Assembly (NCBI GenBank): GCA_030272155.1
Contig: CP126206.1
Span: 3,100,001-3,164,000 of the forward strand
Origin: Tetradesmus obliquus
Lineage: Eukaryota; Chlorophyta; Chlorophyceae; Sphaeropleales; Scenedesmaceae
Length of the DNA stretch: 64,000 nt
Reading direction: 5' to 3'
Shown here: positions 1,592 through 60,589 of the stretch, in pieces
Numbering within the stretch: the first letter of the stretch is position 1
Layout of the letters: the number at the start of each line of letters is the position of its first letter
Notes under the pieces: model-generated
The model's database searches: none
The model's input: the letters and a program-made list of their open reading frames with translations, nothing else
Told to the model about the DNA's origin: nothing
Made by a program: the position numbers and the translations under genes

Positions 1592-3594
1592 ATGCTGCTA
1601 AAGCTGAGCACAAATCGGTCTAAGCAATCCACTTATTGTTCAACTGCATCTTGTATGTGCCACAGAGCTAAAATGCAGTCTGGCCATGAACAGCAGCAAC
1701 AGCAGCAGCACCAGCACCAGCAGCAGCACCACAGCAGCAATCCCCAGCTCACCAGGTCAGTCTTTCGCTGGCCATTTCACAATCTAATTATCTTTCGAGT
1801 ATGTCTAACTCTATCAGATGAAACTCATCAGAAGCAGCAGAGATTACAGCTCGGACGAAACGTGTGCAAGCGTGGCAGTTTCGAGCACTACGGCAACCAA
1901 ACCATGCGTGACGAATTAGCTTGGTTGCAGTTAGCAAGAAAACGTGGAAGTATTGAATCGATCGACTTCTGCAGCAAGATACGTGAGCGAAATGCCAGGG
2001 TATGAGGCCATGTGGCAAGGGGCTTGCTAGCAGAAGTACCCCGTGCATAGGTTATCGCAAAGAAGACGCGTTTATTGATCGAATTCACGAAACCGGATTC
2101 TCACAACCAATGAGTGTGCAGCGCTTGCTTTCCTTGCACGTTGCTTTCGGTGCTGTCCTTGCTCTCTCCGCTGCAGCATGAACAGAGCACAAAATGTCGT
2201 TGAGTCGTAGATAAAGCCTTCCCAGCAATGCAGAGCATGATCGGAGAAGCGGGCTGGCCTGGGCGGTCGGTTGGCCTGCATAAACGCTCTGCACGCCTGG
2301 CTCAGCAGCAGAAGGCAGCAGGATGGCGCATGCTGTGCTGCTCACGGCGCTGCAGAAGCCTTGCAACGAATGCCGGGATGCCCGAAAGGTGCGCAGGGCG
2401 GGGCTTTGCTGCTTGCTGATGCAGCATGTGCACATGCTGCTGTGAGTGTTGCAAGTACAAGTGCAGCAGCAGGACAGGGTGGTGCTGAGTGGGGCATGAT
2501 GTCCAGGCGCTGCTGGGTAGCTGGAACAGCGGCAGCTGGTTTAACATAAAATCTGATCAGAAGGTGACTAATCGGGCTTATCAGCGACAGCAGCAGCAAC
2601 AAAGGAGTACCTGCTGCGCCCTGTCGTGGCAGTGGCGCACCCTTCAGCGCATCTGTGGGAATACATTCATCAAGAGCATCAGGCAATGCACGAAACACTC
2701 TGATGCAGCCGTATTAGAAAGGTCTGAAGTTGCAGTTAAGCTTAGCTTAGGTGTAGTACACCTATGCGTTGCCACACTCCAGCTACAGCAGCAGCATGCG
2801 GTTTACCAGCAGCTAGCGGTGCCCGCTTGGCACAGGCACATGGCTACAAGAAAATGGCGACATTCAAGCATAGCTCGCGCGGGTCAGCAGCAGAAACAGG
2901 CAGTGACACGACACACCAGTCAATCCAGCAGCAGCGGCAGCAGCAGCAGCAACAGCCACAGTGAAGCAGCAGCAAGGAGTCACACACACTGCTGCTGCAT
3001 ACGCTGTGCTGCATGCCGTATGCCTCTTCTGCACACACCTATCATACAGTGCTGTGTGAAATGACACGCAGCAGTGAGGGCAGTGCGAGCATGCTTCCAA
3101 ACGGGTGCTTGAGCTCGCCCTGTAAACACAGCAACTTGTTGTGCTGTGGACAGGGTATCATGACGTACCTGCACTATGCAGCAGCGCAGCAGCAAGCAGT
3201 GCGGGCAGCAGGACAGTTTGCTCTCTCTGCAGTAGCAGTCACAGCTGCAGCAGCAGCAGCAGCAGCAGCAGAAGTTGGCTCTCTCTGCAGCTGCAGCAGC
3301 AAGCAGTGCGGGCTGCAGGGCAGTTGGCTCTCTCTGCAGCAGCAGTCACAGCTGCAGCGGGACGTTCCGACCCGCACCGCCGCTGTCACAGCAGTGATTC
3401 TGATTGTGGCAGCTCTGCGGGACCGTACAAGCTCTTGCCTCCACAGAACGGAACGGTAGCAGCTGCAGTGCTAACATGTCGCTGCTGCTGTTGCTACCGC
3501 AGGTCGCGAGTTTTTACTGACAAGAAAGTACAGCTTCAGCCTGGCAAAGCTTATGTTGTTTGTTCTGGACAAGCCGATCCGGTGCTTGACACAC

Positions 3595-3625
<31 letters not shown>

Positions 3626-5372
3626 CACAGGCCGCCCTTCTCTTCACAAGAAGAGTACAGCTTCAGCTTAACACAGCTCATGGTTGTTTTGGACAAGCCG
3701 ATTGGTCTCACCCTGGCGCCAGACCCTACAACTGGCCACATGTACGTGCAGCACATTGAGGCGGGCATGTCAGCAGCAGAGAGCAAGCTGGTGCTGGTGA
3801 GTTGGCGTCGCTTTGTTTTTGCTTCTTGTCCCTATTTGGTGTCTGTTTCTGTGGTTCTTTTGGTCCTTGTTTTGGCACAACTTGCAGGGTTTTGAAGTCA
3901 TTCACTGACAAGCTGATTGGCCGGACCCTACCATGGGGCACATGTACGTGCAGCACATTGAAGCGGGAATGTCAGCAGCAGAGAGCAAGCTGGTGCTGGT
4001 GAGTTGGCGTCGCTTTGTTTTTGCTTCTTGTCCCTATTTGGTGTGTGTTTCTGTGGTTCTTTTGGTCTTTGTTTTGGCACAACTTGCAGGGTTTTGAAGT
4101 CATTTGTGACAAGCTGATTGGCCGGACCCTACCATGGGGCATATGTACTTGCAGCACATTAAAGCGGGAATGTCAGCAGCAGAGAGCAAGCTGGTGCTGG
4201 TGAGTTGGCGGTGTGGGCCTTTCCTTGTGGCTACACGTCATGTCCCCTCTGATGCTCCAGCTGCTGTTTCATCTAGGTTTTGTGCTGCGTGTCCTGTCAC
4301 TGCAGTCCTGTGTTGCAGGTGGATTGCCCATATCTCTACTGAAGTTCACCGGGTCTGCTCCTGCTGCCGCCGCTGCTTCTGCTGCCAGGTTGGTGACCGG
4401 CTGCTGTCCTGCAGCGCTGTGTTTGGCGATGAGATGTGGCATGCACAGGACTTGCAGCGCACGCGGTGGGCCATCAACAACAGGCCCGGCAAGGTGAGCG
4501 AGCGAGGCAGCAGCAGCGCAGCGCATGGACATCACTCCCCAGGGGGTAAGGCGGGTCAGCAATGCTGTCAGGTTTCGGGGGTGTGCCGTGTGTTTGGCGA
4601 CGGGATGTGGCATGCTCAGGACCTGCAGCGCACCCGCTGGGCTATCAACAACAGGCCAGGCAAGGTGTGTGAGAGAGAGGTTGCAGCGCGAAGCAACAGC
4701 ACTCGTGGCAGAATGAGCCATGTCATGCTGTGCATTGCTGCTGTTTGTTAGGGCACTGTTGGCCATCAACAGCAGGACGGGCGGCAAAATCCTGTACCAC
4801 GTTTGTTGTCAGGGCGGGTTTCAGGGTTCAGTCCAGGTGTTGCAGTGTTTTGGTGACGAGATATGGCACGCACAGGACCTGCAGCGCACCCGCTGGGCCA
4901 TCAACAGCAGGCCAGGCAAGGTGTGTGAGAGAGAGGTTGCAGCGCGAAGCAACAGCACTCGTGGCAGAATGTGTCATGGCATGCTGTGCATTGCTGCTGT
5001 TTGTTAGGGCACTTTTGGCCATCAGCAGCAGGCCTTGCGACGTCAGGAGGGCCGCCAAAACCCTGTTTCAGGGTTGTTGTCAGGGCGGGTTTAGGGTTCG
5101 GTCCGGGTGTTGCAGTGCCGAGTTTGGCGACGAGATGTGGCACGCGCAGGACCTGCAGCGCACCCGGTGGGCCATCAACAGCAGGCCAGGCAAGGTGAGA
5201 CAACAGCCGTGTTACCTTGAGCGTTCATGCAGTCAATTGCATGCTTGGATGCACTGTTGGGCATCCGAAGCTTGCCGCACTGGTTGGACAGCTGCCGTAA
5301 GCCGTCCTGGTAAGCTGCTGATTTGGTCAACACTGCTGCTGCATGTGCTGCTGCTGCTGCCGCTGCTGCATG

Positions 5373-5418
<46 letters not shown>

Positions 5419-6770
5419 TGAAGCTGGTTCTGGAGCGTGGCAGTGGCAACCGTCATAAGCTATTATGAACCTTCTGCTTGCACTGCTGCTGCTGCTGCTG
5501 CTGCTAATGCTGCTGCTGCTGCTGCTGCTGCAGGTCAAGCTGGTGCTGGAGCGCGGCACTGGCAGCTTGCCGCCTTGGTACCTGCAGGGCAGGGAGGGCA
5601 TCGCCAGCTGGGAGGTGCGGTTGGGCAGGGGCAGGGGCAGGTGCTTTTGTGTTTGAACCCCGTTGCTGTTGACTGGAGGCTGCACACCAGTACCTGCAGG
5701 CCAGGGGGGCATTGCCAGCTGGGCTAGTGGTGTTCCATGGTGTGCCTTTGGCGTTCCGATGTGGTTTGTTGAACTTGGCGCTGTAACTGGTTGTTGCACA
5801 ACGCTACCCAAATGTCAACACCTTGGAAAAGCATTCTGGATTTTTGTATGCTTGCAGGTGCCTGAGGTGCAGCTGCCGATACGCTTCGCTGCCCCTGTTG
5901 GTGGGGAGTTGGTGGAGAGCCTGCCTGGTGCGGGGCACTGCCTGAGTGTCAGCTTCAGCCGCTGCATGAACCCAACAGCAGCAGAGCAGGTGCGCTTCTT
6001 TGCGCGCGGCAGGGTTTTCAATGCACAGACAGCACGTTCTTCTTGGGATAATGAAAGTTTCAAATTAATTCAAGCTGATGCTGCTCTTGAGAAGGGCCGC
6101 ACAGTGTTTCGTTTGTGCACTTAGTTGTCGTTGGCAATAGTGGGCTGTGGAGAGCTTGCCTGGGGCAAGGCGCTGCCTGAGCCCTTAGCTTCAGCCCTGC
6201 TGCGACCGTGGTGCTGCGGAACAGGCCAAAAACAGGCCAAAAACATCAGGACAAAACACGCCAAAAACAACAGGCCGAAAACAACCGGCCAAAACAGGCC
6301 AAAAACAACAGGCCGAAAACAACAGGCCAAAACACGCCAAAAACAACAGGCCGAAAACAACAGGCCAAAACAGGCCAAAAAGCGTGGCGCGCCTTGTTGG
6401 GTCACATATCTGCAGCAGGAATGCTCTTGTTCAAGTACACGCTGTTGCGGCGAAAAGGTCAAGGTTTGGTCTGACGCTGCTACTGCTGCAGGTGCGCCCG
6501 CATGGAGTGCTGCGCTGCTGGCACGGCTGCATCATGGCTGCTTGACCATGACATGCACTGATACCACCTCACGCCTACTGCTGCTTCTGCTGCCGCAGGT
6601 GCGCCCGCACGCGATGCGGCCGGGGCTGCTGGCACGGCGCCAACGCGCTGAGCAGCTGTCACGGCAGCTGGTGGAAACAACCGCTTCGCCGGAAGTAGAC
6701 ATTTCATCGCCTCTCAGCAGGTGAGGGGAGATTCAACAATAGTATATACATTTGATACTGTTGTGCTTGC

Positions 6771-6805
<35 letters not shown>

Positions 6806-6919
6806 TGTCACGGCAGCTGGTGGAAACAACCGCTTCGCCGGAAGTAGACATTTCATCGCCTCTCAGCAGGTGAGGGGAGATTCAACAATAGTATATACAT
6901 TTGATACTGTTGTGCTTGC

Positions 6920-6954
<35 letters not shown>

Positions 6955-7684
6955 TGTCACGGCAGCTGGTGGAAACAACCGCTTCGCCGGAAGTAGACAT
7001 TTTATCGCCTCTCAGCAGGTGAGGGGAGATTCAACAATAGTAAATACATTTGATACTGTTGTGCTTGCGCAGCAGCAGCAGCAGCAGCAGCAGAAGCTGT
7101 CACGGCAGCTGGTGGAAACAACAGTTTCGCCGGAAGTAGACGTCTCATCGCCTCTCAGCAGGTCAGGGGCAGGGAGGTTCCTTGCTTGCCGTGTCATGCT
7201 TTGTCAATGCATCATCCTCCCTCAGTAGACAACAGTTGTGTTGCAGCTGCTTCTCTTCAGCTCCGTTTTATCAATGCGGCTTCGTGTATATCTGCCTTCA
7301 TGCTTATCATTGCTGCTGTGTAGGCTGCTGACAGGGCGGGATGGTGCACACGTCCAGATTGGTGTGTCAGGCAGCCCCCTACCACCCGGCGGCACAACAA
7401 ACGTACTGCTGTTGTGCTGCCATTTTGGTGTCTTATACAGCTCACAAAGCTGATTTTAGTTGCAATGTAACACGAAGATAACTTCTCGCCACACAAAACT
7501 ACGCTGCTGCTCCTGCTGTTATGTGTTTGCTCTTCAGGCTGCTGACAGGTCGGGATGGAGCACACTTCCAGATTGGTGTATCAGGCAGCCCCCTACCACC
7601 CGGCCGCACAACAAACGTACTGCCATTTAGGCGGCACGGCAGCAGCAGCGGCAGCAGCACACCTAACCCGGGTGCCAACAGCAA

Positions 7685-7728
<44 letters not shown>

Positions 7729-10057
7729 GTGGAGGGACCAGCATACCATCGAGTCCCCACAACACGAACAATGTACAAAGTAACAACAGCAGCAGCAGCA
7801 AGGCTGCAACAGCAGGCGACGCAAGCAGCAGCAGCAGCAGCGCCGGCGGTGCCAGCAACGGCAGCAGTAAGCAGGGCAGCAGCGCGCCGACGCCTGCTGC
7901 TGCTGCTGCCGCTGCTGCTGCTTGGGGTGGGTCTGCTGCTGGCCCTGGTGGCGGTGTAGTGCCCATGAGGGACAAGAAGGTGAGGTTTCAGGGTTGTGGG
8001 TTTTTTTTGGGGGGGGGGGGGGGGGGACAAGAAGGTGAGGGTTCAGGGTTTTGGGTTTCTTGGGGGACAAGAAGGTGAGGGTTGGGGGTCTAAAAAGGGT
8101 GATGCTCAGGTGGTGCTGCTGCTGCTTGCCCTGGGCGGAGGTGTGGTACCCATGAGGGACAAGAAGGTGAGGGTTCAGGGTTTTGGGTTTCTTGGGGGAC
8201 AAGAAGGTGAGGGTTTGGGTTTTATGTATGCAGCCTGGTGTGGTACCCATGCACGACAATAAGGTGAGGGTTTGGGTTTCATCAACAGGGTGGTGCTCAG
8301 GTGGTGGTGCTGCTGCTGGCCCTGGCGGAGGTGTGGTGCCCATGCGTGACAAGAAGGTGAGGGTTTGGGGTTTTGGGTTTCTTGGGGGACAAGAATGTGA
8401 GGGTTTGGGTTTTATGTATGCGGCCTGGTGTGGTACCCATGCAGGACAATAAGGTGAGGGTTTGGGTTTCATCAATAGGGTGGTGCTCAGGTGGTGCTGC
8501 TGCTGCTGGCCCTGGCGGAGGTGTGGTACCCATGAGGGACAAGAAGGTGAGGGCCAGGGCTTATCAGTTCATTGTAAACATGTTTGTTGGGGTTCTGCGG
8601 TGGGTGTGTTGCTGTTGTATGTTGTGATGCATCTGTCCCTGCAGGTGGTGCAAGTACTTCCCTGGCTGCTGGTCAGCGTTGGCCGCCTCAACATCGCAGA
8701 CCCCACACTCCAAACCCTGAGTAACCCCGTGTTTGCACTTTGCTCTCAAAGGTGCATGCTCTTGTATATGCTGCATGCAGGTGGTGCAAGTACTGCCCTG
8801 GCTGCTTGTTAGTAACGGTCGCCTCAACAGCGCAGACCTCGCCCATTCAACAAATCACACACAACTGGCGAACTTGCAAACAACACCGAAACAAACAGCC
8901 TTTTGCGATATCTTGACTGTTGCTGCGTCTGGTGCGGTGCCTTGCTGTGTGCAGGTGGTGCAGGTACTGCCCTGGCTGCTGGTCAGCAACGGCCGCCTCA
9001 ACAGCGCAGACCTCACCCGCCTTGCCACCACCCGGGCCCTCGGCTGCCTGCTTGAAATGCGGCTAACCCTAAACCACGAGGGTTTACTATGCCCCGTTGG
9101 ATCTCAGCCGCCGCCTTTTAGTTTGCCAGCTGCACCTGTGCCACCGACACTGTCACCTTCGACAGTCCCTGCTCCTGCACCAGTCGAGCCACCACCGCTG
9201 CCGCCTGAGCAGCAGCAGCAGCAACAGCAGGAACAAGAGGAACAGCAGCAGCAGCAGCAGCAGTTAGATCAGCAGCAGCAGCAGCAAGCGGCAGCAGATG
9301 CTGGTGCATTAGCAGCTGGTTTAGTCGGTATGGCTGGGCCAGATGTCGGCTTTGCGAGTGCAGCCGCCGCTGCAGCAGCAGTGGCAGCAGCAGCAGCCGG
9401 CGGCGACGGCGACGGCCAAAACCCCAGCAGCAGTAGCAGCCAAAACCCTAGCAGCCAAAACCCTAACGAGCCGAGTCCGCTGACGCTGCAGGCGCATGCA
9501 ATTTTGCACTGCATTGCAGATCTGCAAAGATTGGCAGTTCGGAGGGAGTGGACACCAAAAGGGGGCACAGCTTGGCGGCAGCAGCTGTATCAGCGGGCGC
9601 CTTCCCCTTTTGCTCCTGGCACCTCACCATTTCTGCCGCGGCAGCAGCAGCTGCAGCAGCAGGGCTTGGGGTTGGGTTTAGCAGGCAGCAGCACCACACC
9701 CAGCAGCATTGCCGGCAGCAGCAGCAGCAGTGGCAGCAGCAGCAGCGGTACGCCCCCACAGGGTTCCTTCGTTGCTCCGGCTGGAGCTGCTGCTGCTGGC
9801 AGCAGCAGCAGCAGTAGTATAGGCAGCAGTACCACCAGCAGCAGCATCGGCAGCAGCAGCAGCAGCAGTGCCGGCGGTTTAGGGTTTAGGCAGCCGAGCA
9901 GTCAGCTGCTGCTAAGCTGTGATGAGGGGGCCTGGGGTTTAGTGGGGCTGATGCTGGTGTCCTGGCTGCACTGGCACTGTGGGGTGTCCCAGGCAACAGC
10001 AGTGGAGTCTGTCAGCAGAGCACTGGGGCTGACACTGAACGAGGTGAGCTGAGGTGG

Positions 10058-10091: not shown

Positions 10092-11115
10092 TGGTGGAGG
10101 TGATGGTGGTGTGACTGGCGTGGTTGTTTGATTGGCTGCTGTTTGGCTGGGCTGGGCAGTTGTCACCACGTGTCAATTTTTGTCGTGATATTGCCGGGTG
10201 CTGTGGGGTTTGGTGGGGCTGGTGGTGGTGTCCTGGCTGCACTGGCACTGCGGGGTGCCCCAGGCAACAGGTGTTGAGTCTATGAGCAGAGCACTGGGGC
10301 TGACACTGAACGAGGTGAGCAGTAGTGCTGCTGCTGCTGGGTGGTGGAGGTGATGGTGGTGTGACTGGCATGGTTGTTTGATTTGGCTGCTGTTTGGCTG
10401 GGCAGAGCACTGGGGCTGACACTGAACGAGGTGAGCAGTAGCGCTGCCAGGAAGTGGCCGTAACCCAGTTGGTGCTTACCTGGATCGCACCGGCAGATGC
10501 TAGTGGTGCGCGCCAAGGAGCGCTTCAACGTTGGCAGCAACGCCAATTATAGCTATAAAACCCCACAAACCTATGTGTCTCAACGCTAAAACCTGTTGTT
10601 GCTGTTGGCATCGACCCTGCAGGCAGTGCTGGACGGGGTGCAGCGGCTGCTGGTGGTGCGGGCCAAGGAGCGCGACCACCCACCCAGCTGACACCAACAT
10701 TCGTTTGCACAACCTTCTAAAACCTGCTGCTGCCGTCCCTTAAACCCTCGCATGCAGGCAGTGCTGGATGAGGTGCAGCGGCTGCTGGTGGTGCGGGCAA
10801 AGGATCGCTTCAGCCGGCTGATGCTCAACTGGCCCTACGGGGGAGGCAGCGCAGAGGTGTGTGTGACTGGGAGAAGTAGGGTGTGTACCTGGCTACATGC
10901 ATGTTGATGCATGGCTTCTTCATTTCAGTGCAATGCCAGCCAATCTTGCTGGTGTCGCAACCAGCAGCTTGTGCGCGTGCTCAACCGCTGTGTCAAAGTG
11001 GTTGTGAAGTGAGCTTAGGGTGAGCCAGGCAGCGCTTCATCGGGAGGCAGCGCTGAGGTGTGTGTGACTGGCAGAAGCTGAAGGGGGCTTATTTGGCTGC
11101 ATGCATGTCTATGGC

Positions 11116-11209
<94 letters not shown>

Positions 11210-12533
11210 GTTATTATCATTTGGCTGCATGCATGTCTATGCGGGCCTCCTTTGCGTCTCAGTGCCACGCTGGCCGGTGTACCTTGTCATACCGCAGCCA
11301 AGTAGCGCTGATGTACAGATTGCCTTTCTTAGTCTGCCTATCTGTCTTCAGCGGCTGTGTTGTTTCTTACTGTCTCTGATCTTATCCTGTTGTGCAGGTC
11401 TCCGGTGACTTGGTGGGCGGCTGGACGCAGCGTGTGGCGATGCGGCGCTGCCTCAGCCCCGACGGCTGCCTGGGCGCCAGCAAAGGTGGGGCAGATTGTC
11501 ACTGGCGACTAACAACCAGGAGCCAGATCAATGCCAACAATGATGCTGATGGAGTGCAGACGGCAAGTCAAAGCTTTGGTGCAGCGGCCAACACCCCAGC
11601 TTTTGAAACGACGAGCGCACGCCATCATGGAGTGATTCGAGCGGAAGGGTTTGCACCCCACAGACTACTACCACAAGCCCGCACTGGACACGGTCACGTG
11701 TGTTATCCTGGTGTTTTTTATGCAGGCCACTTCTATCTAGAGCTGAAGGGCCTGCACCCGGGGCGCTGCCACTACAAGTCCACGCCTGCTACTGCTGCAT
11801 TCAACCCGCTGTCTGTGTCTTACTATTTTTTTGCGCAGGCCACTTCTACCTTGAGCTGAAAGGGCTGCACCCGGGGCGCTACCACTACAAGTTCATCATC
11901 GACAACAACTGGGACGTGGACCCTGCAGCACCCAAAACCCTGGACTCCGAGGTGGGCAGAACCCTGCTTGGCACAGATCTGCTGCGCTGTCGCATGATAT
12001 TTTGTGCTGCAAGTTCATCATCGACAACAACTGGGACGTGGACCCCGCAGCACCCAAAACCCTGGACTCAGAGGTGCACAAAACCCTGTGACAAACAGGT
12101 TGCATAGTTGTGGGTATGTGTGTCATGTTGACGCTTGCTACCGTCTGCTGTGCTGTGCTGCTGCTGCTGCCGCTTGCTGCTGCTGTCAGATTGCCATCCG
12201 TTGCTGTGCTAGCCTTGTATATGTTGCCCTGCTGCTGCCGGAAGCCATGTGCCTTGAAGCTGAACTCCAGTTTTGCTGCTGCTGCAGGGCAACTGGAACA
12301 ATTTGCTGGATGCGGACAGCGGCACCCACAACCCAGGCGCCGTGCTCTGCTGACGATTGCTGCTACTGCTGCTGCTGCTGCTGCTGCAGGGCAACTGGAA
12401 CAACGTGCTGGATGTGGTGCCACCCCCTCGCATCGAGAGTGCCGAGGAGGAGGCACATTTCGCTGCACTGCATGCAATGGCGCTGGCTTTTGAGCGCAAG
12501 CTGCGGGTGGTCAGCAGCATCGGCGGCAACTAG
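1592..12533 (+). CDS. LSF1: LSF1-like plastid phosphoglucan phosphatase homologue (PDZ + DSP + CBM48)
   Basis: The exon model is 1592-1755, 3631-3796, 4389-4493, 5534-5614, 5858-5989, 6599-6720, 7538-7979, 8955-10043, 10758-10856, 11398-11485, 11839-11951 and 12390-12533. All phases agree and give 914 aa. Exon 1 is tentative: Ser/Thr/Lys/Arg-rich, without acidic residues early on, like a chloroplast transit peptide. Residues 70-160 form a PDZ domain (LDKPIGLTLAP, then VGDRLL and FGDEMW). A dual-specificity-phosphatase-like region follows from residue 405, split by long Gln/Ala/Ser runs. Its P-loop reads CDEGAWG at 726-732, so the CX5R arginine is missing, and SWLHW follows. Residues about 790-880 are a CBM48 glycogen-binding fold (GDLVGGW, GRYHYKFIIDNNW, GNWNNVLDVV). 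Plant LSF1 has this PDZ-DSP-CBM order and acts at starch granules in starch degradation, mainly as a scaffold for beta-amylases. Many exons have extra copies in the introns. Family assignment is strong; exact exon choice is weaker. Confidence 0.82.
3508..4199 (+). repeat. LSF1 PDZ exon triplicated with its intron
   Basis: The PDZ exon ending at 3796 recurs at about 3905-3998 and 4105-4199, and its donor GTGAGTTGG repeats at 3797, 3999 and 4200, a period of 201-202 bases that includes the following intron. The second and third copies read GACAAGCTGATTGG where the first reads GACAAGCCGATTGG and have lost bases, so the PDZ frame is broken in them. A fourth, more decayed 5' copy lies at 3508-3585. 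Confidence 0.85.
4389..5195 (+). repeat. Four copies of the LSF1 FGDEMW exon
   Basis: The PDZ alpha-helix exon is complete at 4389-4493 (VGDRLL to RPGK). Shortened copies follow at 4572-4664, 4846-4920 and about 5117-5195. The first three are open, begin after an AG, end before GT and run phase 0 to phase 0, giving 35, 31 and 25 residues. The fourth is displaced by one base at its 5' end. Only the first carries the VGDRLL segment needed for a normal PDZ fold. Confidence 0.8.
5325..5533 (+). repeat. (CTG)n tracts and an extra KLVLERG half-exon
   Basis: Two CTG runs flank a partial copy (about 5419-5455) of the LSF1 exon that begins GTCAAGCTGGTGCTGGAGCG at 5534. The partial copy has an acceptor AG but no usable donor. 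The CTG tracts serve as polypyrimidine-like sequence ahead of the acceptors. Confidence 0.7.
6224..6385 (+). repeat. Short tandem repeat, AACAGGCCAAAAAC family
   Basis: About nine variants of a 17-18 base unit, AACAGGCC followed by AAAACA or GAAAACA, are arranged head to tail in an LSF1 intron. The tract is A-rich and lacks T almost completely on the + strand, unlike its CTG-rich surroundings. Confidence 0.85.
6599..7161 (+). repeat. Four-copy exon cluster in LSF1 (SRQLVETTASPEVD)
   Basis: The exon 6599-6720 is followed by three shorter copies at 6775-6869, 6924-7018 and 7073-7161, with unit spacing of about 142-149 bases. Each extra copy has its own (CAG)n acceptor, an open frame ending in SSPLSR and a donor (GTGAGG, GTGAGG, GTCAGG). 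Lengths 122, 95, 95 and 89 all equal 3n+2, so every copy starts in phase 0 and ends in phase 2 and only one can be used at a time. Confidence 0.9.
7320..7430 (+). repeat. Partial upstream copy of the LSF1 LLTGRDG exon
   Basis: The segment from the AG at 7329 encodes LLTGRDGAHVQIG and the following PLPPGGTTNV, closely matching the exon that starts at 7538. It diverges after about 90 bases into a stretch without a donor, so it looks like a truncated duplicate. Confidence 0.8.
7940..8548 (+). repeat. Reiterated exon 3' ends (VVPMRDKK donors) with G-rich spacer
   Basis: The last codons of the LSF1 exon ending at 7979 (GTGCCCATGAGGGACAAGAA and donor GTGAGG) recur near 8150-8168, 8340-8358 and 8530-8548, with weaker versions near 8240 and 8440. 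The spacers are rich in GGGTTTGGGTTT and include a run of eighteen G at 8009-8026. Each copy supplies an alternative 5' splice site. Confidence 0.8.
8646..9020 (+). repeat. Three copies of the LSF1 LPWLLVS exon start
   Basis: The sequence encoding VVQVLPWLLVS occurs after an acceptor AG at about 8646, 8780 and 8955. Only the third leads into the long open exon running to 10043. The first two are truncated after 60-80 bases and have no clear donor. Confidence 0.85.
10190..10856 (+). repeat. Extra copies of LSF1 phosphatase-region exon ends
   Basis: The 3' part of the exon ending at 10043 (SWLHWHCGV to LTLNE and donor) is repeated at about 10203-10317, and its last 30 bases again at about 10404-10433. 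The next exon (VQRLLVVRAK) is present partly at about 10500-10530 and 10621-10670 and fully at 10758-10856. Only the last copy continues into the CBM48 start (LMLNWPYGG). Confidence 0.85.
11094..11241 (+). repeat. (ATT)n microsatellite flanked by a direct repeat
   Basis: About 31 uninterrupted ATT units run from 11117 to 11209 in an LSF1 intron. They are bracketed by two copies of GGCTGCATGCATGTCTATG at about 11095 and 11226. Open frames across it encode only poly-Ile, poly-Tyr or poly-Asn and are not genes. Confidence 0.95.
11723..12340 (+). repeat. Duplicated CBM48 exons of LSF1
   Basis: The exon encoding HFYLELKGLHPG is present partly at about 11724-11780 and fully at 11839-11951. Its 3' half (FIIDNNWDVDPAAPK) recurs at about 12012-12072 with its donor region. 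The start of the last exon (GNW) appears partly at about 12286-12320 before the used copy at 12390. Confidence 0.8.
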
Positions 12534-18455: not shown

Positions 18456-21400
18456 ATGATTGACACTGGAACTGGACAGACGCCGGTCAATGTGCGGTGA
18501 GTGATGCAAGCAAGGGCGCTGGTGCCACCGAGGCTGCCCGTTTCATGCCCAAATGCAGGCCGCCCAAGTTCAGCTAGCACAATTTATGCCGTCAAGCCAG
18601 CTGTTTCGCAGTGCCAGCAGGACAGCAGGCTAGACTATGGCCGGCTGGTTGCTGCTTGGTGTCAGCAACCAGCAAGTTGCCAACGCCCACTGCCTGCCAG
18701 CAAGTACAAAACGTAGCAAGCCCTGCTGTCGGTACACACAACGTCCAGTTGTTGGCGAATTTTTATTGCAGCTAAGCCACCAATGTGCAGCCACTTGCAG
18801 GCAGTGCCACAGTAGATGCTGGGCGGTTGCAACAGATGAAACATTTGCTGCATCGGCAACAGGCATCAACATACCTGCAGCCACAGTGAAGCAGCCCTAA
18901 TCCTTAGAGGTTGATTCAAACCAGCAGTTGACTTCGTGCATGCAGCAGTCCATCACATGTCAGAAGCGGGCCCCACCAGTAGTCACTGCTGGATGTGGCA
19001 TGCAGTGCACTGGCTGGCTCCTGCTTCATCTGCCTACTGCCTGGTATCAACCTTGCTGCGCACGTGCCTACCCTATTGCCTATCCCACGCGCACGCGTAC
19101 CTCATATATCCTGCAAGCATCTTTGTCCCATCATGCAAACACATCCATGTGCTTGTGTCGTGTGTGTCCTGCAGGGTTTATTCGGATGGCTTCAGCAAGG
19201 ACCACAAGCAGTCCTTCATCTCCTGGGCAGTGGCAGTAACCACCCTGACCATCTACACAGGCTGGATGCACGTGCTGATTGGCCTCATGCTTGCAAGCTT
19301 CTTCAGCAGGACCTGCCTGTATGTGCTGCTGGCAGTGTGGGCCACCACATTCCTTCCTGCAAAGCCAGTGCTGTGGAACGCCTTCTGCAGGTCTTGGGTG
19401 AGTGACATAGAGCTTGGGGGTTACGACGTAAGCCACACTGGTGTAGCAGAAGCGAGAGCACCGACTTGCGCAGTGCACAGCAGCAGGAGGTGGCTTCGCA
19501 TGCTGTGCCGTGCCACGGAACGCTTGCAGCAGGTCATGGGTGGGTGATGCGCGGCGGCAGCAGCGGCATGGAACGTTGCGGCACAGCAGCAGTGGCAATG
19601 GCGTGCGTAAGGCTTACAGTTGCTGTCCTGCAAGCTCAAAAAGGGCTGAGCAAAGCGCGGGCACGTGCTGCAGCTGCTGCTTGCTCCTCATGCCTTGTGT
19701 GCTACTGCAAGCGCCCTCCAGCGCTGCACGCTCCTGCACGTCACTGCAAGCAAATTTCTTGCCGTGGAGTGTCCAGACGTAGCGCGGGACTTCTCCAGTC
19801 CAGCTGCCAGCTGCCCGAACGTTCCCTGCTGCTGCTTTCCTGCAAGCTTCCACCCAGCGCTGTGCCCCGCTGCGCCGCCCCTGCATCATGATTCTCAAAT
19901 GCTCTGCAGATCTTCCAGACGTGGCGCGAGTACTTCCAGTTCTCCTACCTCAACGAGTCCACGCTGGACCCTGCCAAGAACTACATCTTCGTGGAGTTCC
20001 CGCACGGCGTGTTCCCCATGTCCGAGCTGGTCGCGGGTGCGTTGCACTGGCAGGGTTTGGCAGCAGCAGTTTAGGAGCAACCAGGACATCAGGGGTGTGC
20101 AAATGAGCAGGCTTGTGCGCAGCAGGCTGGGGATTTGACCAGCGGTCACTGTGTTCCCCATGTCCGAGCTGGTGGCAGGTGCGTGGCAGCAGCAGCAGCC
20201 ACAGTAATGAACCGTATGCGCAGCTTGGCTGAGTGGCAGCGGGGTGGAGGTTGGCAAAAGTCGGTCTGCATGAGAGTAACAGCGGCTAACAAACAGCAAG
20301 CAGCTGCAAGAATGTGGAGCTTCCTCACGGCGTGTTCTCCAGGAGCGAGCTGGTGGCGGGGTGCGTTTGCAAATGGTCGACTGCAGAAGCTGGTATGCAG
20401 TGTTACAGTGACGGCTGGGCAGTGGCAGGTGGGGTAAAAAAAGTGCTGCTGCTCATTTCTCTGCTGCGCCCTGCTCTTCATTTTGTTGCAGGCACGCTGT
20501 GCCAGGCCATCTGGCCCTTCTTCAACATCTACGCGGTGGCTGCTTCTTTTGCATTGTCATCACAAGAGACCTCACATGCATTGAAGCTGCCTCCTGCCTC
20601 GTCTGTTTCCTGCAGGCACGCTGTGCCAGGCCATCTGGCCCTTCTTCAACATCTACGCGGTGGCTGCCAGCAGCGTGTTCTCCATCCCCTTCTGGCGCCA
20701 CTTCATCGCGTGGCTGGGCGGCGTGCCTGCCACACCCGGCAACTTCAAGAAGGTCTTGAAGAAGGGCAGTGTGGCTGTGATCGTGGGCGGCATTGCAGAG
20801 ATGTACATGCAGGTGATTGCTTTTGCTGCTGTCTGTCCTTTCGTGTTTCTTGCTTCCCCAGTTGTGTTTTGGGCCTGGGGATGATCTGAGGGCGCCACTC
20901 CATCGCGTGGCTGGTCGGCGCGCTTGCCACGCCCGGCAACTTCAAGAAGGTGCTCAAGAAGGCAGCATGGCGGTCATTGTGGGCGGCATTGCAGAGATGT
21001 ACATGCAGGTATGTTTTGGTGTTGCTGTTGTGTCGTGTTCTGCCTGTTTTCATGCTTTTTTAAGCAGAGAGGTGGCACCAGGTCGCCTGGCTGGGCGGCA
21101 GATTTTGACACTCTCACTGTTGCCTGCCCTCATGCATGCTCACTTGTTATCTTTACCCCCCCCCCCCCCACACACACACACACACACACACCAACAGCAC
21201 AAGCGCAAGGAGCGCATCAAGCTGCTGGAGCGCAAGGGCTTCGTGCGCATCGCGGTGGAGGCGGGGCTGGACGGCGGCATCATCCCTGTGTACCACTTTG
21301 GCAACACGCAGGTGAGGGCATGCAGCATGAATCAGGCTGGCAGCAGCAGAAGCAGCAGTGACGGTCTTGGCGCCAGCACCGCCACATCCCGCTTGGGTGA

Positions 21401-22071
21401 GCTCTGTGTGCTGTCAAAAGCATGTTTGAGTTGCAGCGAGTATGCCGAGGCTGTTTTGAATGCAGGACAGCAGCTGCAAGCAGCGGTGCCTGCAGCAGCA
21501 CTGGCAGTGCTGGCGCCAGTACCTGAGATCAGTGCATGAAATGTCATGTTCACTTTGCGACTGTTGCATGCCTTGACCTGACAGAGCCAACTTCCTGCTT
21601 TTCCGGCGCGGCCTGTTTCTGTCACCCCTGCAGGTGTTTGACTTCTGGCCACAGTCGCTGTCGGGCTTTGCGCGCAAGCAGCGCGCGGGGCTGGGGCTGC
21701 TGGTGGGGCGCTGGGGCACGCCGCTGCCGCGCAAGGTGGGCTGGGCTTGCGTTTTATGGAGTGAGACTTAACCTGCAGCATCGATAAGCGTAAGCATAAG
21801 CACGCCGCTGCCGCGCAAGGTGGGATGGGCTTGTGCTTGGAAGCTGCTGCGTGCTTCAGCACTTTGGATCTTGTCTGCAGCTGATGCATGGCCTTGTAGC
21901 ACCGCAGCATGGCCGCGCGCAATGGCGGGGGCAGATTGCCGGCAATGCTGTGAACTGGAGTCGTGGCGTCATCCCGTGCATGTTAGCATGGGACTCCTGT
22001 CGACCCTGCGGCGCGGATGTGTGAAGAGGATGCTGCTGCTGCTTCTGACACTGCTGCTGCTGCTGTTGACA

Positions 22072-37092: not shown

Positions 37093-38384
37093 TACTTCAA
37101 CATGATCGCCTCACTCAACCAGCTGCACAGTCAAAATGGCATGCTGATGTCGATGGGTCTGGTGAACTATGCAGACCCCAGTGCAGAGCTGCTGCCGGTG
37201 AGTGTTACATTGATGTTATACCATGTTGTGGCGAGATTTTAGTTATTCATACACAATGGCACGCAGATGTCGATGGGGCTGGTGAACTATGCAGATCCCA
37301 GCGCCGAGTTGCTGCCGGTGAGTGTTACATGAATGTTATACCATGTTATAAAGATAATTAAGTCATTCATACACAATGACATGCTGATGTCGATGGGGCT
37401 GGTGCATTATGGAAACGCCCGTGCTGAGCTGCTGCTGGTGAGTTCATCAGGGACGTTATGACACTCACTAATGATACACGTTATAATGACAATGGCTGCA
37501 TGGTGTGCCGCCACCCTGTGAGTGATACGCTCTCAGTGTCGCACAAGGACGGTTGCACATAGCACTCTGCGCACGTGCACATCCCCTGCTTGGTCTCCAA
37601 ACCGACCTCACTCTTTTGCGTGCCCATAGTCTTACTCTTTTCCGTGCCTTCACTCACTATTCCTGCAGGCGTTCAACCTGCAGCAGCACATTCAGCACGT
37701 GCGCCTGGTGGGGCTTAGTGCTGACTTGCTATTTATTTTCCATGCCCAGTATCATTTTTGTCTGTGCCCCCACTTGTTCTGCAGGAGCACAACCTGCAGC
37801 AGCACATTCAGCACGTGCGCCTGGTGGGGCTCAGCGCTCAGCAGCAGCAACAGATTGCTGCCGGCTGGTCGGTGTTTGTCGGCCTGATGGATCCAGTGCT
37901 GCAGGTGCGGTTCATTTGCCTTGTCAGTATGTCGTGTGTGCTATGGTTTTCAATGGAATGTTGGACTTTTTGAAATACAGTTTGAAGTACATTTGAAATA
38001 CTACTGGCAGCCCAGCCGGCTGTGCGATGTCTGTCGGCCTGATGGATTTGATGCTGCAGGTGCGTCACTTTTTTGGGGTCATTGAGACAATTTCTGTTCA
38101 TGTGTGTTATTTGGGATGCTGGGGTGTGAGACGTTTAAGGTTCTATTGGCAGCCGGCAGCGCAGTGCGGGTTGGGCTGCTTGATCCGGTGCTGCAGGTGC
38201 GGCTTGTTTACCAGCCACCCAGGAAGATGGTCAGATTCTGGCACTGCTGTAAAGCAACAGCAATGGCTGGACCAGGACACAGTTGACTGCTCGATTGAGC
38301 CAAGTTTATTGCAGCTGGTGACACAGCATCTGATCTGTTTCTGCGCAGCTACTGCTGCTGTCCCCGGTGCCTAATCTGTTTCTG

Positions 38385-53035: not shown

Positions 53036-55522
53036 GAGGACAGCAACGAGGTGCTAGCAGCCACAAGAATGAACATCTGCAACATTCGCTGTGCAGAGGT
53101 AGGCATGCAGCTGCTGTCCAGTCTACACGCACTGCCTGCGCGGCTGTCATGCGTTGTGCGTGGTTGACATGCTGCACATGCGTGCAAGCTTCCTATCAAA
53201 AGATACTTGGAAGGAATGCCTCAAAAAAAACTTGCATGCTGCACTTGCTTGACGTCTTCCGCAGGAGGTCCAGTCCAGCCTGGCGGCTCGCACTGAATGC
53301 GAATGTGTTGAGATCAGTGACTTCTTAGATGTGCCAGACCAGGTGTGGGGCCAAAAACAGTTGCTGCAGCTGTTGCTGGTCAACGGAGGTTTCACGTGCT
53401 TGTCAGAACAGCTTGGGCAGCTGCAGGAGCTGCAGGTACTCGAGCTGTTTTGTTGCCACCAGCTAACAAGCCCGCCCGCATGCATCGGGCAGCTATCAGC
53501 ATTGACACGCCTCAGAGCTCAATGGTGCAGCGGCCTGCAGCAGCTGCCAGAAACCATCGGGCAGCTCTCAAACCTGAGGAGTCTGGTGGTGGACTGCTGC
53601 AACAGACTGCAGCAGCTGCCGGCGTCCCTTGGGCAGCTGTCGAAACTGCAGATATTGAAGGTGCAAAGCAGCAGCCTGAAGCAGCTGCCAGACACCATTG
53701 GGCGCCTTTCAGCATTGCAGGAGCTGGACGTGCGTGCAGCGAGCAGCTTGAAGCGGCTGCCGAGCAGCGTTGGGCAGCTGTCAAGCCTACGCAAGCTGAC
53801 TGTGGGTGAGTGCAGCGGCCTGCAGCAGCTGCCAGAAACCTTCGGGCAGCTGTCAATGTTGCAGACGTTGACTGTGAGCTGGTGTCGCAGCCTGCGGCAG
53901 CTACCAGACACCATCGGGCGGCTCTCAGCGCTGCAGGCTTTAGATTTGAGCCTGTGCAGTAGCCTGTGGCTGCTGCCAGAATCCATTGTGCAGCTGTCAC
54001 AGCTGCAGACGCTGTGCGTGGGCTCCTGCAGCAGCCTGCAGCAGCTGCCGTACTCCATCCAGCGGCTCTCAGCCCTGCAGACGCTAGATGCGAGGGAGTG
54101 CAGCAGCCTGCAGCAGCTGCCGTACAATATTGGCTTGCTGCCAGCGCTGCAGGTGCTGCACCTGCAGGGCTGTAGCAGCTTGGCAGCACTGCCAGAGCAG
54201 CTGCAGCTCTGCAGGTTGCAGAGGCTGGTGCTTGATAGCTGCACGCAGCTAGGCGGCCTTCCCGAGCTGCTGGGAATGCACAGCCTGAGGAAGCCGCAGC
54301 TGTCAGGCTGCAGTACCCTAGAGCAGCTGCCGGAGTCGCTGGCGGAGCTTACAGCATTGATGATAATCAGACTGGCTCGATGCAGCAGCCTGTCACGGCT
54401 GCCTGCATACATGGACCGAATGAAGGGCTGGACATCAGCTTTTGTCACAGCCTGGATGCGTTGCCCAGGCGCATGCCAGCCAGTCTGCAGCTGCTGGATT
54501 TGTCCCACTGCCGCCATGCAGACAAGCTCGCCGAGCAGCTCATAGATCTGGCGGAGCAGATGCCAAATGCCAAGGTTGTGCTGAAGGGTTGGGGTGCACT
54601 GGGCACGCAGCAGCATGACCAGACACTGCAATTTCTGTTTGGGCAGTCGTTGCGCGGCTTGGTTCCGCAGCTGCGGACAGAGACGACAGTGAAGCGGCTT
54701 CTGACAGACAGCGAAACCATCATATCTTCACTGGAGCGGCTGTCATGGCTGGCGGTGCTGCTAGCTGCTACTACTTTCACTGCTGCTGTGGCACCGCCGG
54801 GCGGATACAACAGCGGGTTGCTGTTCCTGCCTTATAGCAATGCAGACTGCAGAGTCAGCAGCAGCAGCAGCGGCAGCAGCGGCAGCAGCCGCATCAGCAG
54901 CAGCAGTGTAGGTGCCCAGGACATCAATGGCAGCTGCATTCAGGCGCCTGATACGTGCAGTGATGGGCTTGCTTGCAGGGCGCAGGTTAGTGCTAACAGG
55001 CTCCGGGCCTTCTTTGTGCTGGATCTGCTGTCATTCGGCTTCTCCATGGCATTGGTACTGTTTGTGGTGGCGTGCAGCATGCCACGCAAGATCGGCGTGC
55101 AGTCTGCACGCTATGCGGGTCTCATATGGATGTCACTAGTAACAGCTTCGCTGCTGATGGCAATTGCAGTGGGGTACGGCATGGGGGCTGTAGTAGCAGG
55201 AGTTCTGGCAGTGTACCCGGCAGCGCTTGAGTTGGACGTGTGGGCTCCGTTGTGTATTACAACAGCAACAACATGCGGCGCGTTCTGGGGGCTGGTGGTG
55301 CGGTGGAAGGCGATGTGGCCTGGCGTTGATGCAATTCGTGCAGGGCTGCGGCATGCCTGCGATGAGGCAGGCTTCAAGCGGGCGGCTGAAGAGCTGCGAG
55401 CAGCAGCAGGGAAAGCAGCTTTTGCATTTGGAGATGTGTGGGGTTCGGGCAGTCAAACCATGCGGCCTCTGGTCAAGCAGCTGCAGCGGCAGCAGCGTGG
55501 TAATTCAGGTGGGGTGGTGTAA
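53036..55522 (+). CDS. LRR protein fused to a C-terminal PGG membrane domain; one frame break
   Basis: Exons 53036-53098 and 53265-55522 are placed; the 5' end is open. From about 53400 to 54540 run some 15 LRRs of 23-24 residues (LSxLQxLxxxxCSSLQQLPxxIGQ), the cysteine-containing type seen in plant resistance proteins. After a link (TVKRLLTDSETIISSLERL), a PGG domain begins: SWLAVLLAATTFTAAVAPPG then GY, followed by three more hydrophobic helices (FFVLDLLSFGFSMALVLFVV, then two at about 55110-55290). PGG domains normally follow ankyrin repeats in plants, so an LRR-PGG pairing is unusual. At about 54425-54432 the frame shifts by -1: RLPAYMDRMKG continues as LDISFCHSL only after re-reading one base. 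This is an assembly error, a recent deletion or a true frameshift. No NB-ARC or TIR domain is visible. A cytoplasmic sensor anchored by its C-terminus is a possible role. Confidence 0.75.
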
Positions 55523-56850
55523 GCCGCTGCTGCTGGTGCCACAGGCACCGGGCGCTGGCCAGCATGGTAATGGTGGACACAGCAGCAGCATGTTGTCTGG
55601 GTCAAATGTTGATCGCACTGTCCTGCAATGCTGTCTGTGTTGAACCAGGACAACAGTATCTTTCTTGAGAAAGCCTTTCAAATTATCATCATCTGGAATC
55701 GTTACATGTGGGTCCTGGCACCATCTTTTGCGTGAGCCTTACACACAGAAAAGGGGCATTTTTCCCTGAGCGTGCGGCCCGGCCGATCTGCGGTTCATGC
55801 AGGGCTGCGGCATGCCTGGGATGAGGCAGGCTTCAAGCGGGCGGCTGAAAAGCTGCGAGCAGCAGCAGGGAAAGCATTTGGAAATGTGTGGGGTTCGGGC
55901 AGTCAAACCATGCGGCCTCTGGTCAAGCAGCTGCAGCGGCAGCAGCGTGGTAATTCAGGTGGGGTGGTGTAAGCCGCTGCTGCTGGTGCCACAGGCACCG
56001 GGCACTGCCAGCATGGTGGTGGTGGACACAGCAGCAGCATGTTGTCTGAGTCAAATGTTGATCGCACTGTCCTGCATTGCTGTCTGTGTTGAACCAGGAC
56101 AACAGTATATTTCTTGAGGAAGCCTTTCAAATCATCGTCATCTGGGATGGTTACATGTGGGTCCTGGCACCATCTTTTGTGTGAGCCTTACGCACAGGAA
56201 AGAGGCATTTTCTCTGAGCGTGCGGCCCGGCCGATCTGCGGTTCATGCAGGGCTGCGGCATGCCTGGGATGAGGCAGGCTTCAAGCGGCAGCTGAAAAGC
56301 TGCGAGCAGCAGCAGCACCAGCAGCTGCAAAGTTTGCAAAGCTGCTGGCAGCATGCAGGCAAGGGAGGGAGGTTCCAACACAACAGCAGCAGCAGCAGCA
56401 GTGGGGTCATTTGGCTGGGGTGGTGTAGCAGGCTGTTGCTCGTGGCGCTGGTGTGGACCAGCACAACAGCGGCAGCTCGAGGTGTTGGTTGATGCTTAGG
56501 CTTGAATGTTGAGCACGCGTTGGTGGAGGGCAATGTGGCCTGGCTCCACAGCTGTTAATGCAGAGTTGGCGCATGCTTGAGTTGAGCAGGCTTCAGAGGG
56601 CCAGCTAGAAAGCTGCAAGCAGCGCCAGCAGCAGCAGCTGCTGCCAGCAAATGATTTGACTGGCTGCTGCATGCAGGCCAGGTGTCGGGGCGCCAGCCCA
56701 GCAGCTGCGGCGGCAGCAGCGTGGATAGTTGGCTGGGGTTGTGCAGCACGCTGCCCGCAGCGCCTCAGAAGCAGAAGTGGGCCAGCATGGCAGCAGCAGC
56801 TGCAGCTTGCAGGAGTACAGCCAGCATAGAATGTAACAGCAGCAGCTTGC
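55325..56850 (+). repeat. Tandem duplication of the LRR-PGG gene 3' end
   Basis: The C-terminal coding end (GLRHACDEAGFKRAAEEL to GNSGGVV and stop) with its trailer recurs at about 55785-56150 and 56235-56500, a period of about 450 bases, and again in decayed form at about 56520-56850. The second copy is open to the same stop; the third loses the frame. All carry the ACCAGGACAACAGTAT trailer or traces of it. Confidence 0.88.
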
Positions 56851-58138: not shown

Positions 58139-60589
58139 ATGAGCTTGTGCGACGGGCACAAGGAGCGGCGCGCTTCTGGCGTGCGAGTTTCGGTTCTAGC
58201 AGAGGTGGGGAAGCTGCAGCAGGCGGAGATCTGTGCTTGCTGCACTGCTGGGAGAGGCCCCCTCGTGCTCAACACAGCCCTTGCCCGTGCAGGCGGACGA
58301 CGACCTGCCAATTTGCTGGATATGCCTCGGCCATTCTGAGCCTGACAGGCCACTCACGCACCCCTGTCGGTGCCCAAGCTGGTGCCATGCCACCTGTGTG
58401 AGTGTGGGGGATAGGGAGCGTACTCGCCCAGCACCGGATCGCTGGCTTCGGGGTACCTCAACAGACAGTTCGATTGTCTGACGCGGTTTTCTTCCTGTTG
58501 CAGGTCGCAAGATGGCAGCTGCAGAGCGCAGGCACGAGGTACGTAGTTTTGGCTGCTTCTGCGTGGCCTGTAGACAGCCCTGTGTCGTGCTCAGCTCGCA
58601 TGACTGCAGTAGGTTGATAAGTAGCTGTTACCAAGGCCTTGCTGCGCTGCTGTCTGCAGGCGTGAGAAGTTCTGCGACTTCTGCAGCTGCGAGCTTCCCG
58701 ACTGGAAGAGCGTGCTCACGCCCACGCCAGCCCCGACAGCCCCAGCCGTGATGAACGTCAACTTCGACAACAAAACGTACAGTTTCCAGGTGCTGCCAGG
58801 CGCAGATGGCTACAGGCAGTTCACTGAGGCCATCCGCAAGGCATTCCACCTGCCAGACGACTCTGAGCTCAACATAACATTCACCTGCGACGAGCCGAGC
58901 TCAGGTTGGTGGTAGCTGGTGGTGCTTTATGTTTGTTTCTGCTGTTTGGCGCTGTCAGCTGTCTGTGCAGGCCTGCGGTGCCTGCGTGCTGCCTGTGTGC
59001 AGTGACAGCAGCAGCGCAGCAGCAGCGCAGCATCGCATGCGATGGCATTATGCAGGCAAGGCAAGGTGTTTTCAGCTGCTTGTTGTAACGATCAATGTTT
59101 AACAAGCTCTGCTCAAGGCTGGTGCTGTTACCTGCTGTGCCTGCAAGCATTCGTAGCACAGCTTGCTGCTCAGCTAGCCAATGCCCCGGCGCAGCTCCGA
59201 GCAGTGTTGTTCGGTGGCGGCAGCAGTCGCGGCACCAAGACACAAGCTTGTTACAATGACTGCATCATTATTTGGCCTGTTTTACCGTGCATGTGTACCT
59301 GTTTCGACCGCGTACAGTGTTTCCTGCAAGCGCGGCATGCATGCATTGTCGCACCGTCTTGAGCTTGAGCTTGTCACCCATCCCGCTGCAGTGCATTTAC
59401 ACATCCTCTCTGCAAAGAGCATACCTATCTTTGCGTGTGTGTCATGCTCTGTGCAGTTTGATGTTCACTCTACCAATACTCCCAACTCGTCACTCAGTTC
59501 TTGCCCCTTTCTGCTTCCTTTCCCAGCAGGCAGCCATCTCACGCTGTCCGGCCCCGGGGCTTATGACGCAGCAGTAGTTTCAAACCTATATGCATTTGTT
59601 GTTCTGCTTTCTGTTCCTTTCCCAGCAGGCAGCCTTCTCACCCTTTCGGGGCCCGGGGCTTATGACGCAGCAGCAGCAGCAACTGAACTCTGCACTCGTT
59701 GTTTCGTTTTCCGCTTGCTTTCCCAGCAGGGAGCCTTCTCACGCTGTCAGGCCCCGGGGCTTACGACGCAGCCGTGCACTGCGCCTCAGTCTCTGCAGCA
59801 CGCCGCAGCACCAGCGGCAGCGGCAGTACAACCGACAGCACATCCGGCAGTACAACTGGCGAGCCACACTCACACCCGCTGGGTGGGCCCTCATCTGCCC
59901 CTGCATCACCCACACACGCAGCACGGCAGCAGCTGCAGCAGCAGCAGCATGCACTGCTGCAGCAGCACGCACTTGGGGGTGACGGCAGCGGCAGCAACAC
60001 TCAGCAGCAGCAGCAGCAGCTGTGCCCGGCCAACCTGCAGCAGGATGCAGCAGCAATGCACGAAGCAGCAGCCAGCGGCAGGGGTCATGAGACCGCACCA
60101 GCAGCACCGCAGCACGCCAGCCCAAACAGGCACAGCAGCAGCAGCAGCAGCAGTGACATAATCAGCCGCCGGGCGAGCAGCAGCAGCAGCAGCGGCAGCA
60201 GCAGCGGCATGGCGCCAGCAGATGAGCTGCAGAGCCCTTCAAGCACCAGCAGCACTGAGCAGCAGCAGCAGCAGCACACGATCATGCACGATGTGCTGCA
60301 TCCGCTGTCTTCGCTGTTCCATTCTGGCGCTCAGAGCTCCCGTGTTTCTGAGGCAGGCTCTGATGAGCATGTCAGCAGCAGCAGCGCAGCAGCAGCAGCA
60401 GCAGGGGAGCTTGGCAGGGGCAGCAGCAGCAGCAGCTCCATCAGCAGGACGTCTGTCTCTGGCGCCAGCAGCAGCGGCAGCAGCAGCAGCGGCGAGGCCA
60501 GCAACGGCAGCAGCAGCAGCAGCAGGCGCAGCCAGGGCTTCGGGCGCAAGCTGCGCGACGCCATTGCAGACATGCTGATCAGCAAGTAA
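58139..60589 (+). CDS. RING-CH (MARCH-type) E3 ligase with PB1-like domain
   Basis: Exons 58139-58204, 58293-58397, 58504-58538, 58660-58904 and 59730-60589 join in phase to 436 aa. The RING-CH zinc ligands are C30, C33 (CWIC), C47, C49 (CRC), H54, C57, C74 and C77 (CDFC), a C4HC3 order with VARWQLQSAGTR between the sixth and seventh. Residues about 90-175 (MNVNFDNKTYSFQVLPGADG, LNITFTCDEPSSGSLLTLSG, PGAYDAAV) resemble a PB1 ubiquitin-like fold. The last 250 residues are Gln/Ser/Ala-rich and end in a basic helix (RKLRDAIADMLISK). No transmembrane helix is seen, unlike classic MARCH proteins, so this is a soluble ligase. It should transfer ubiquitin from an E2; the PB1-like part may choose partners. 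The ATG at 58139 gives a short basic leader in phase with the zinc domain. Confidence 0.85.
59520..59690 (+). repeat. Two extra copies of the PB1 exon start (LTLSGPGAYDAA)
   Basis: The start of the last RING-CH exon, GGCAGCC or GGAGCC then CTCACGCTGTC to TATGACGCAGCAG, recurs at about 59529-59576 and 59628-59680 with the preceding intron (TTTCCCAGCAG). Both copies end in a stop or lack a donor. The period is about 100 bases. Confidence 0.88.

Follow-up and report, generated by a model that had tools for sequence, protein, structure and literature searches.

Why do the introns of a stretch of algal DNA carry surplus copies of exon ends, splice site included, and what has become of those copies? 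The stretch (the window) comprises 64,000 bases of Tetradesmus obliquus, positions 3100001-3164000 of contig C16; the assembly has 17 contigs with a total of 104,662,953 bases. With only a fragment of an exon and a single splice site, such a copy should stay out of the protein and should therefore decay without restraint. We found instead that in conserved genes such copies differ from the complete exon mainly at third codon positions, and the explanation that we favor, with a probability of roughly 45%, is that local duplication across one splice site was combined with the exchange or capture of functional exon versions that had diverged from one another. The DNA examined amounts in all to ~0.36 Mb of 104.66 Mb, the genes studied were picked rather than drawn at random, and reading frames were taken from Pfam matches or from codon usage.

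Comparison of the window with itself (simple repeats masked, E <= 1e-4) yielded 138 direct and 6 inverted pairs of repeats lying no more than 1 kb apart, which cover 28.6% of its bases, and dinucleotide shuffles of the window gave no pairs in five of five trials. The window count is inflated by the protein repeats of an LRR gene (53483-54201), which are ordinary repetition. Twenty 10-kb stretches sampled over all 17 contigs held 158 direct pairs against 11 inverted ones; direct pairs occurred in 16 of the 20 and were absent from stretches L002, L008, L018, and L021. Pair offsets in the window and samples have their maximum at 100-150 bases. Nearby direct units with few inverted ones are what neutral tandem duplication predicts. 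Short-range direct repetition is real and genome-wide but uneven. The original prediction of local repetition around exons, not limited to this contig and due to a genome-wide duplication process, was supported in these respects, with a scale of ~100-250 bases in place of the 50-250 claimed. A dispersed, introner-like element would be expected to recur at many genomic sites; the one array searched for in this regard against the 104.66 Mb, with very common words skipped, was found in one place.

Because matches to Pfam family PF00118 give secure reading frames, chaperonin genes outside the window were chosen for the anatomy of the copies. The set comprised nine genes, some of them partial, with a total of 51 kb; it covers nine of the 11 contigs with PF00118 matches (all but C17 and C11) and 43 of the 61 match rows. 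Eight matches whose profile positions overlapped those of a better match were kept apart as potential copies, some of which are probably real exons, and one long match on C15 was divided manually into two exons. For exon C14 2411, two rows were dropped, one a self-alignment and the other a real copy with the triplet [2,0,1] (such triplets, like [0,0,5], give the differences at codon positions 1, 2, and 3), leaving 72 of 74 copies.

At least one copy was present at 23 of the 34 chaperonin exon domains, in six of the nine genes, and 13 exons had copies on both sides; no copies were seen on the domains tested in the chaperonin genes of C2, C8, and C4. Thirty copies lie upstream and consist of an acceptor and the exon start, and 42 lie downstream and consist of the exon end and a donor. 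Their spacing (median 138 bases, quartiles 120 and 166, 5-95% range 104-245) is that expected of repair-mediated duplication, in which the linked unit measures up to several hundred bases. The splice site forms the outer edge of nearly all copies: judged by eye, 28 of the 30 upstream copies retain AG and 39 of the 42 downstream ones retain GT. In 48 of the 72, no more than 35 bases align beyond the exon domain. The inner edges are abrupt and often common to several copies of one exon. In the 13 two-sided exons, the inner end of the upstream copy lies near the inner start of the downstream copy (median gap 15 bases, permutation p 0.03, exon ends set by hand), a weak tendency with one exception among the 13, where the gap is 130. 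Repeat pairs touched exon domains in 77 of 147 cases compared with 40.9 ± 6.2 under rotated annotation, an excess that could partly reflect the better survival of sequence under constraint. One gene has as many as six distinct versions of a single exon half.

These copies also show codon-position constraint. Compared with the complete exon, the 72 copies carry 67, 68, and 325 differences at positions 1, 2, and 3 (69, 68, and 326 with both dropped rows restored), a third-position share of 0.707, and 316 of the differences are silent and 144 non-silent. The share exceeds one half in 16 of the 21 exons with at least three differences. In simulations, a dead copy beside a working exon reached a share of 0.41-0.47, which is the range predicted by neutral tandem duplication and is exceeded in the chaperonin genes. 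Rapid synonymous change confined to the complete exon was rejected because the copies also differ among themselves at third positions: compared only with one another, they have 27 of 471, 39 of 469, and 110 of 469 variable columns at the three positions, and this share of 0.625 exceeds 0.467, reckoned to be the maximum for snapshots of an evolving exon, with p = 2e-5. Base composition or CpG was likewise rejected as the cause, the excess persisting with CpG sites excluded (5.6, 7.8, and 20.7% variable by position). Frame-breaking indels are found in nine of the 72 copies and in-frame stops in two. Gene conversion within a single lineage was set aside by argument, as it yields no low ratio of amino-acid-changing to silent differences. 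The constraint, which was absent from the original prediction, is not explained by plain duplication and decay; judging from the pattern of differences, copies in conserved genes appear to have gained much of their divergence as parts of working genes.

Site patterns bear on how this came about. In 11 arrays, each taken as copies plus exon, 13 of 21 pairs of patterns fit no tree (mean in simulations 3.0, P 0.006), so that a small number of sites supports exchange. If the copies nearest the exon were the younger ones, a polarity would be expected; in eight upstream arrays it is weak (nearest copies 8, 7, 39; farthest 13, 17, 33) and in 12 downstream arrays it is absent. An evenly decayed class (11, 11, 10; four copies) and a third-position class (0, 4, 31) can be set apart, both picked after viewing the data, and our conclusions rest on the totals for the whole set and not on such classes.

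Outside the chaperonins, seven kinesin loci were picked from 135 matches, the one on C2 because overlapping matches were visible there; three overlapping matches at this locus were excluded from the exon list. Copies occurred at five of 32 exon domains in two of the seven loci, one of them that on C2, and five loci had no direct pairs at all. The claim that almost every gene is affected is thus too broad for the exons tested, with copies in six of nine chaperonin genes and two of seven kinesin loci only. The 12 kinesin copies, nine of them from one locus, differ at 12, 5, and 32 sites by codon position, and one HSP90 gene has copies on two of eight domains, with four copies that differ at 2, 3, and 10. 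Together these 16 copies, examined after the chaperonins, give 14, 8, and 42. In the gene for the D1 processing protease on C3, two exons are identical to PDB entries 1FC6/1FC7 over residues 247-300 (54 residues) and 301-361 (61), and the translation of the preceding exon agrees with the entry by eye over residues 197-247. We take 1FC6 to be the Scenedesmus obliquus enzyme. An intron of this gene holds a decayed acceptor-side copy (~C3:3736749-3736796) that is missing from the solved protein. This was the one gene with a solved protein examined in regard to the earlier suggestion that such copies might keep supplying new exons.

How might such arrays arise? We propose that units of ~100-250 bases would be duplicated frequently and locally. 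A unit that straddles exactly one splice site would be harmless at birth, as the cell would keep the acceptor or donor adjoining the complete exon and the spare exon end would join the intron, and duplications within exons would be purged. Tolerance of the former and purging of the latter would leave arrays in which an acceptor with the exon start lies upstream of an exon and the exon end with its donor lies downstream. Much of the divergence between copies and complete exon would have arisen inside working genes, on separate alleles or haplotypes, and the diverged versions would then have been joined by unequal crossover, gene conversion, or capture during repair, and later partly reshuffled. 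The arrays, their splice-site edges, and the constraint on codons and splice sites are observed; that the exchange took place between alleles, in a sufficiently heterozygous alga, is what we infer. For a related Scenedesmus strain, PMC7955037 reports likely diploidy, with alleles separated and a haploid size of 103.4 Mbp. Three routes remain: juxtaposition of allelic versions, repeated exchange between units and exon across haplotypes, and use of the copies in transcripts. A further-reaching form of the proposal, which we hold only tentatively and think rather doubtful, is that introns would store interchangeable exon ends with working splice sites, which would recombine repeatedly with the complete exon or other alleles; selection on the gene would thereby extend into the introns and keep the spares coding, and exons would be mosaics renewed from their own introns.

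Several observations weigh against duplication combined with exchange. Copies are one-sided in 10 of the 23 chaperonin exons that have them, and 14 of 36 nearest copies align over at least 90 bases beyond the domain, which is what simple tandem duplication would give. Repeated events are needed to account for more than two versions of an exon half, and multiple copies of one exon are non-independent observations. The third-position divergence of ~19% is very high for alleles within one species. The codon signal is also weaker outside conserved genes. Frame calls from codon usage worked for only 23 of 349 pairs and gave a weaker excess: ten of 137 window pairs differ at 13, 17, and 46 sites (46 of 76 at third positions) and 13 of 212 sample pairs at 26, 24, and 58 (58 of 108), and the third-position share in pairs with no frame call is 0.40 in the window and 0.35 in the samples. 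Periodicity measured free of frame in 300 pairs, a set that includes redundant pairs, is modest (z 5.0; 20 of 242 strongly periodic, 7.4 expected), and 13 of the 20 strongly periodic pairs come from chaperonin loci, with seven from the window and samples.

These points have to be set beside those that bear on other explanations. Neutral local duplications over one splice site, dead from birth and decaying, would owe their association with exons to tolerance and to the better visibility of exons. Such a process fits the one-splice-site geometry, the tandem units that align past the exon, the four evenly decayed copies, and the fact that most pairs from the window and samples are only weakly periodic, but the third-position shares of 0.707 and 0.625, where at most ~0.47 is predicted, and the scarcity of in-frame stops already disfavor it, and we regard it as unlikely. 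If the copies were instead functional, serving as alternative exon ends in some transcripts and kept by selection on protein and splice site, then codon constraint, retained splice sites, and mostly diverged introns would all follow. The copies are partial exons, however, whereas mutually exclusive exons have both acceptor and donor, and their inner edges lack splice signals: GT lies within 5 bases in 10 of 30 (background 0.25) and AG in 7 of 42 (background 0.26), and an internal AGGT common to copy and exon is found in only 17 of 72, with no enrichment in any case. Inclusion would be expected to break the chaperonin domain. Because inner edges lack splice signals and the D1 protease copy is missing from the protein, use in transcripts is disfavored, which makes it distinctly improbable to us, and duplication across one splice site with exchange or capture is therefore preferred.

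An artefact, in which the assembly has placed the haplotypes of a heterozygous diploid end to end at short range, would suit the allele-like character of the differences and the likely diploidy reported for the related strain (PMC7955037). It accords poorly with up to six versions of one exon half in one gene, with tandem units that contain intron, and with the many contigs affected; we consider it very unlikely. The original prediction had also raised a possible link between the duplications and the CAG/CTG runs beside acceptors, the instability of which would drive them. Such runs are common and are present in some units, yet only 14 of 72 inner edges have one within 60 bases, compared with 25% of background windows (526 of 2144), and 8 of 30 acceptor copies have one upstream. 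We give this idea almost no credence.

In the window itself, where the copies and arrays described here lie on the forward strand, several hand-picked copies have an acceptor as their first part or a donor as their last, which upholds the claim that copies include splice-site sequence; self-comparison likewise confirmed that they carry indels and range from near-identical to decayed. The complete CBM exon (11839..11951, ends set by eye from splice consensus) is preceded by a copy of its acceptor and first half (11714..11782, 88% to 11827-11895) and followed by a copy of its second half and donor (12007..12088, 93% to 11885-11966), and the ranges that the two copies cover on the complete exon overlap by 11 bases. 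Its AMPK1_CBM match (~11862-11948; Pfam E 3.2e-6, 27.7 bits, cut-off 26.8) would fit LSF1, and matches to AMPK beta in PDB are weak (E 0.07). Three copies at 8640-8706, 8776-8838, and 8950-9016 (8640..9016) each start at TGCAG and have no upstream homology; changes specific to the 8776 copy are all third-position (0,0,4), and the 8640 copy is decayed (1,3,2). Homology stops at the acceptor or donor in these copies, in those of the CBM exon (11714/11839/12007), and in the pair 20463/20586. The latter belongs to the DGAT2-like gene, where an acceptor-side copy (20463-20543) lies upstream of its counterpart (20586-20667; whole feature 20463..20667, 90%) and a DAGAT match is nearby (20817-21539). 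Further acceptor-side copies are 7314-7409 of 7528-7623 (7314..7623, 92%, with a non-homologous spacer), 10618-10673 of 10753-10808 (10618..10808, 93%), and 37614-37722 of 37736-37838 (37614..37838, 80%).

Arrays of donor-like ends were found at 3718..4210, with 2.4 units of 202 bases in which an exon-like end is followed by a donor-like GTGAG (tandem repeat finder, 94% matches; self-blast of 3718-4009 against 3920-4210, 95%), and at 6651..7169, with 3.5 units of 149 bases that combine an exon-like end and a donor-like GTGAGG (96% matches, self-blast). Three donor-side units of 120 bases, each with a donor-like GTGAG end, occupy 37132..37443 (tandem finder and self-blast), and three to four of 128 bases occupy 39053..39471 (96% matches). 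Self-blast detected four related exon-like copies near 4410, 4589, 4849, and 5111 (4410..5199), whose frame-called pairs are 4848/5122 [0,0,5], 4592/5122 [0,2,4], and 4410/5111 [1,2,7]. Units of ~449 bases with shorter decayed copies lie near the LRR-PGG gene (55335..56754; tandem finder, self-blast); the family search gave an LRR match in 53253-54545 and a PGG match in 54239-55522. The same two programs detected three units of ~100 bases at 59507..59775, in a region that had been named RING-CH. Of the gene names given earlier, only some were anchored by family matches (AMPK1_CBM, which would fit LSF1, DAGAT, LRR, and PGG), and RING-CH is not among these.

Some further observations concern the window and genome more generally. 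The window contains two near-perfect minisatellites, with units of 26 (36694-36854) and 20 bases (28544-28667), and a (TAT)35 run (11116-11221). In stretch L017 (C16:1000001-1010000), five direct pairs span 59% and consist of long units, unlike the exon-end arrays. On C8, two pairs of MutS_V matches with equal scores and spacing (2613110-2613770 and 2846425-2847085) lie ~233 kb apart, which suggests a recent large duplication. The translation of an S41 protease gene on contig C5 holds several consecutive copies of one segment near the 3' end, possibly another exon-end array. An HSP90 gene at C17:247137-256862 spans ~10 kb and has two matches that overlap in profile (370-417 and 387-415), whereas another, at C2:1426052-1429359, is compact; there may be two classes of genes, one with long and one with short introns. 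A G+C content of 56% agrees with the 57% given for T. obliquus in PMC5966456. The draft of strain UTEX 393 measures ~108 Mb (PMC5255914); the same paper, citing older work, gives four chromosomes, which does not match the 17 contigs of 3-11 Mb found here.

The arrays resemble several systems in part. Tandem units with exchange between them are typical of minisatellite (variable number tandem repeat, VNTR) arrays; the algal units share this arrangement but are parts of exons with a splice site, strongly diverged and coding-constrained. Tandem exon duplication and mutually exclusive exons likewise provide spare intronic exon copies with the reading frame kept, but these are whole exons with both splice sites, whereas the algal copies are only parts. 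Intron gain by the AGGT route of Rogers, in which a local exon duplication turns into intron, requires an internal AGGT; since so few copies share one with their exon (17 of 72), it is no general rule here. A tandem duplication that crosses an intron-exon boundary is known from the potato RdRp gene (PMC4974935); as described there it was a single event that created an intron, whereas the alga has many arrays, at both splice sites and with codon constraint. The repair-mediated duplications of vertebrates (Pace et al., 2009, PMC2671141) are closely linked, reach up to 619 bp, and take in exons as well as the splice sites of introns. Compared with these as they are presented in that paper, the algal arrays differ in standing at exon ends, often several per exon, and in being third-position-biased. 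Among the matches listed in our literature searches there was no report of such copies in Scenedesmaceae and none of a genome-wide, codon-constrained swarm of exon-end copies. As far as these searches show, the dense clustering at exon ends and the constraint on codons are new, and single boundary-crossing duplications are known.

The mean intron of T. obliquus, 462 bases, is the longest of five green algae compared in a table of PMC5966456 (230-302 in the other four), and at 15.7% its share of coding sequence is the smallest in that table. Exon-end arrays could in part explain these long introns, and coding-like intronic fragments could be mistaken for exons by gene predictors. Should the copies be ordinary duplicates, they would illustrate in T. 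obliquus how introns can grow through local duplication. If exchange with working exons is true, selection would act on sequence that is never translated, which would alter the reading of intron evolution, of gene models, and of the ratio of non-synonymous to synonymous change (dN/dS).

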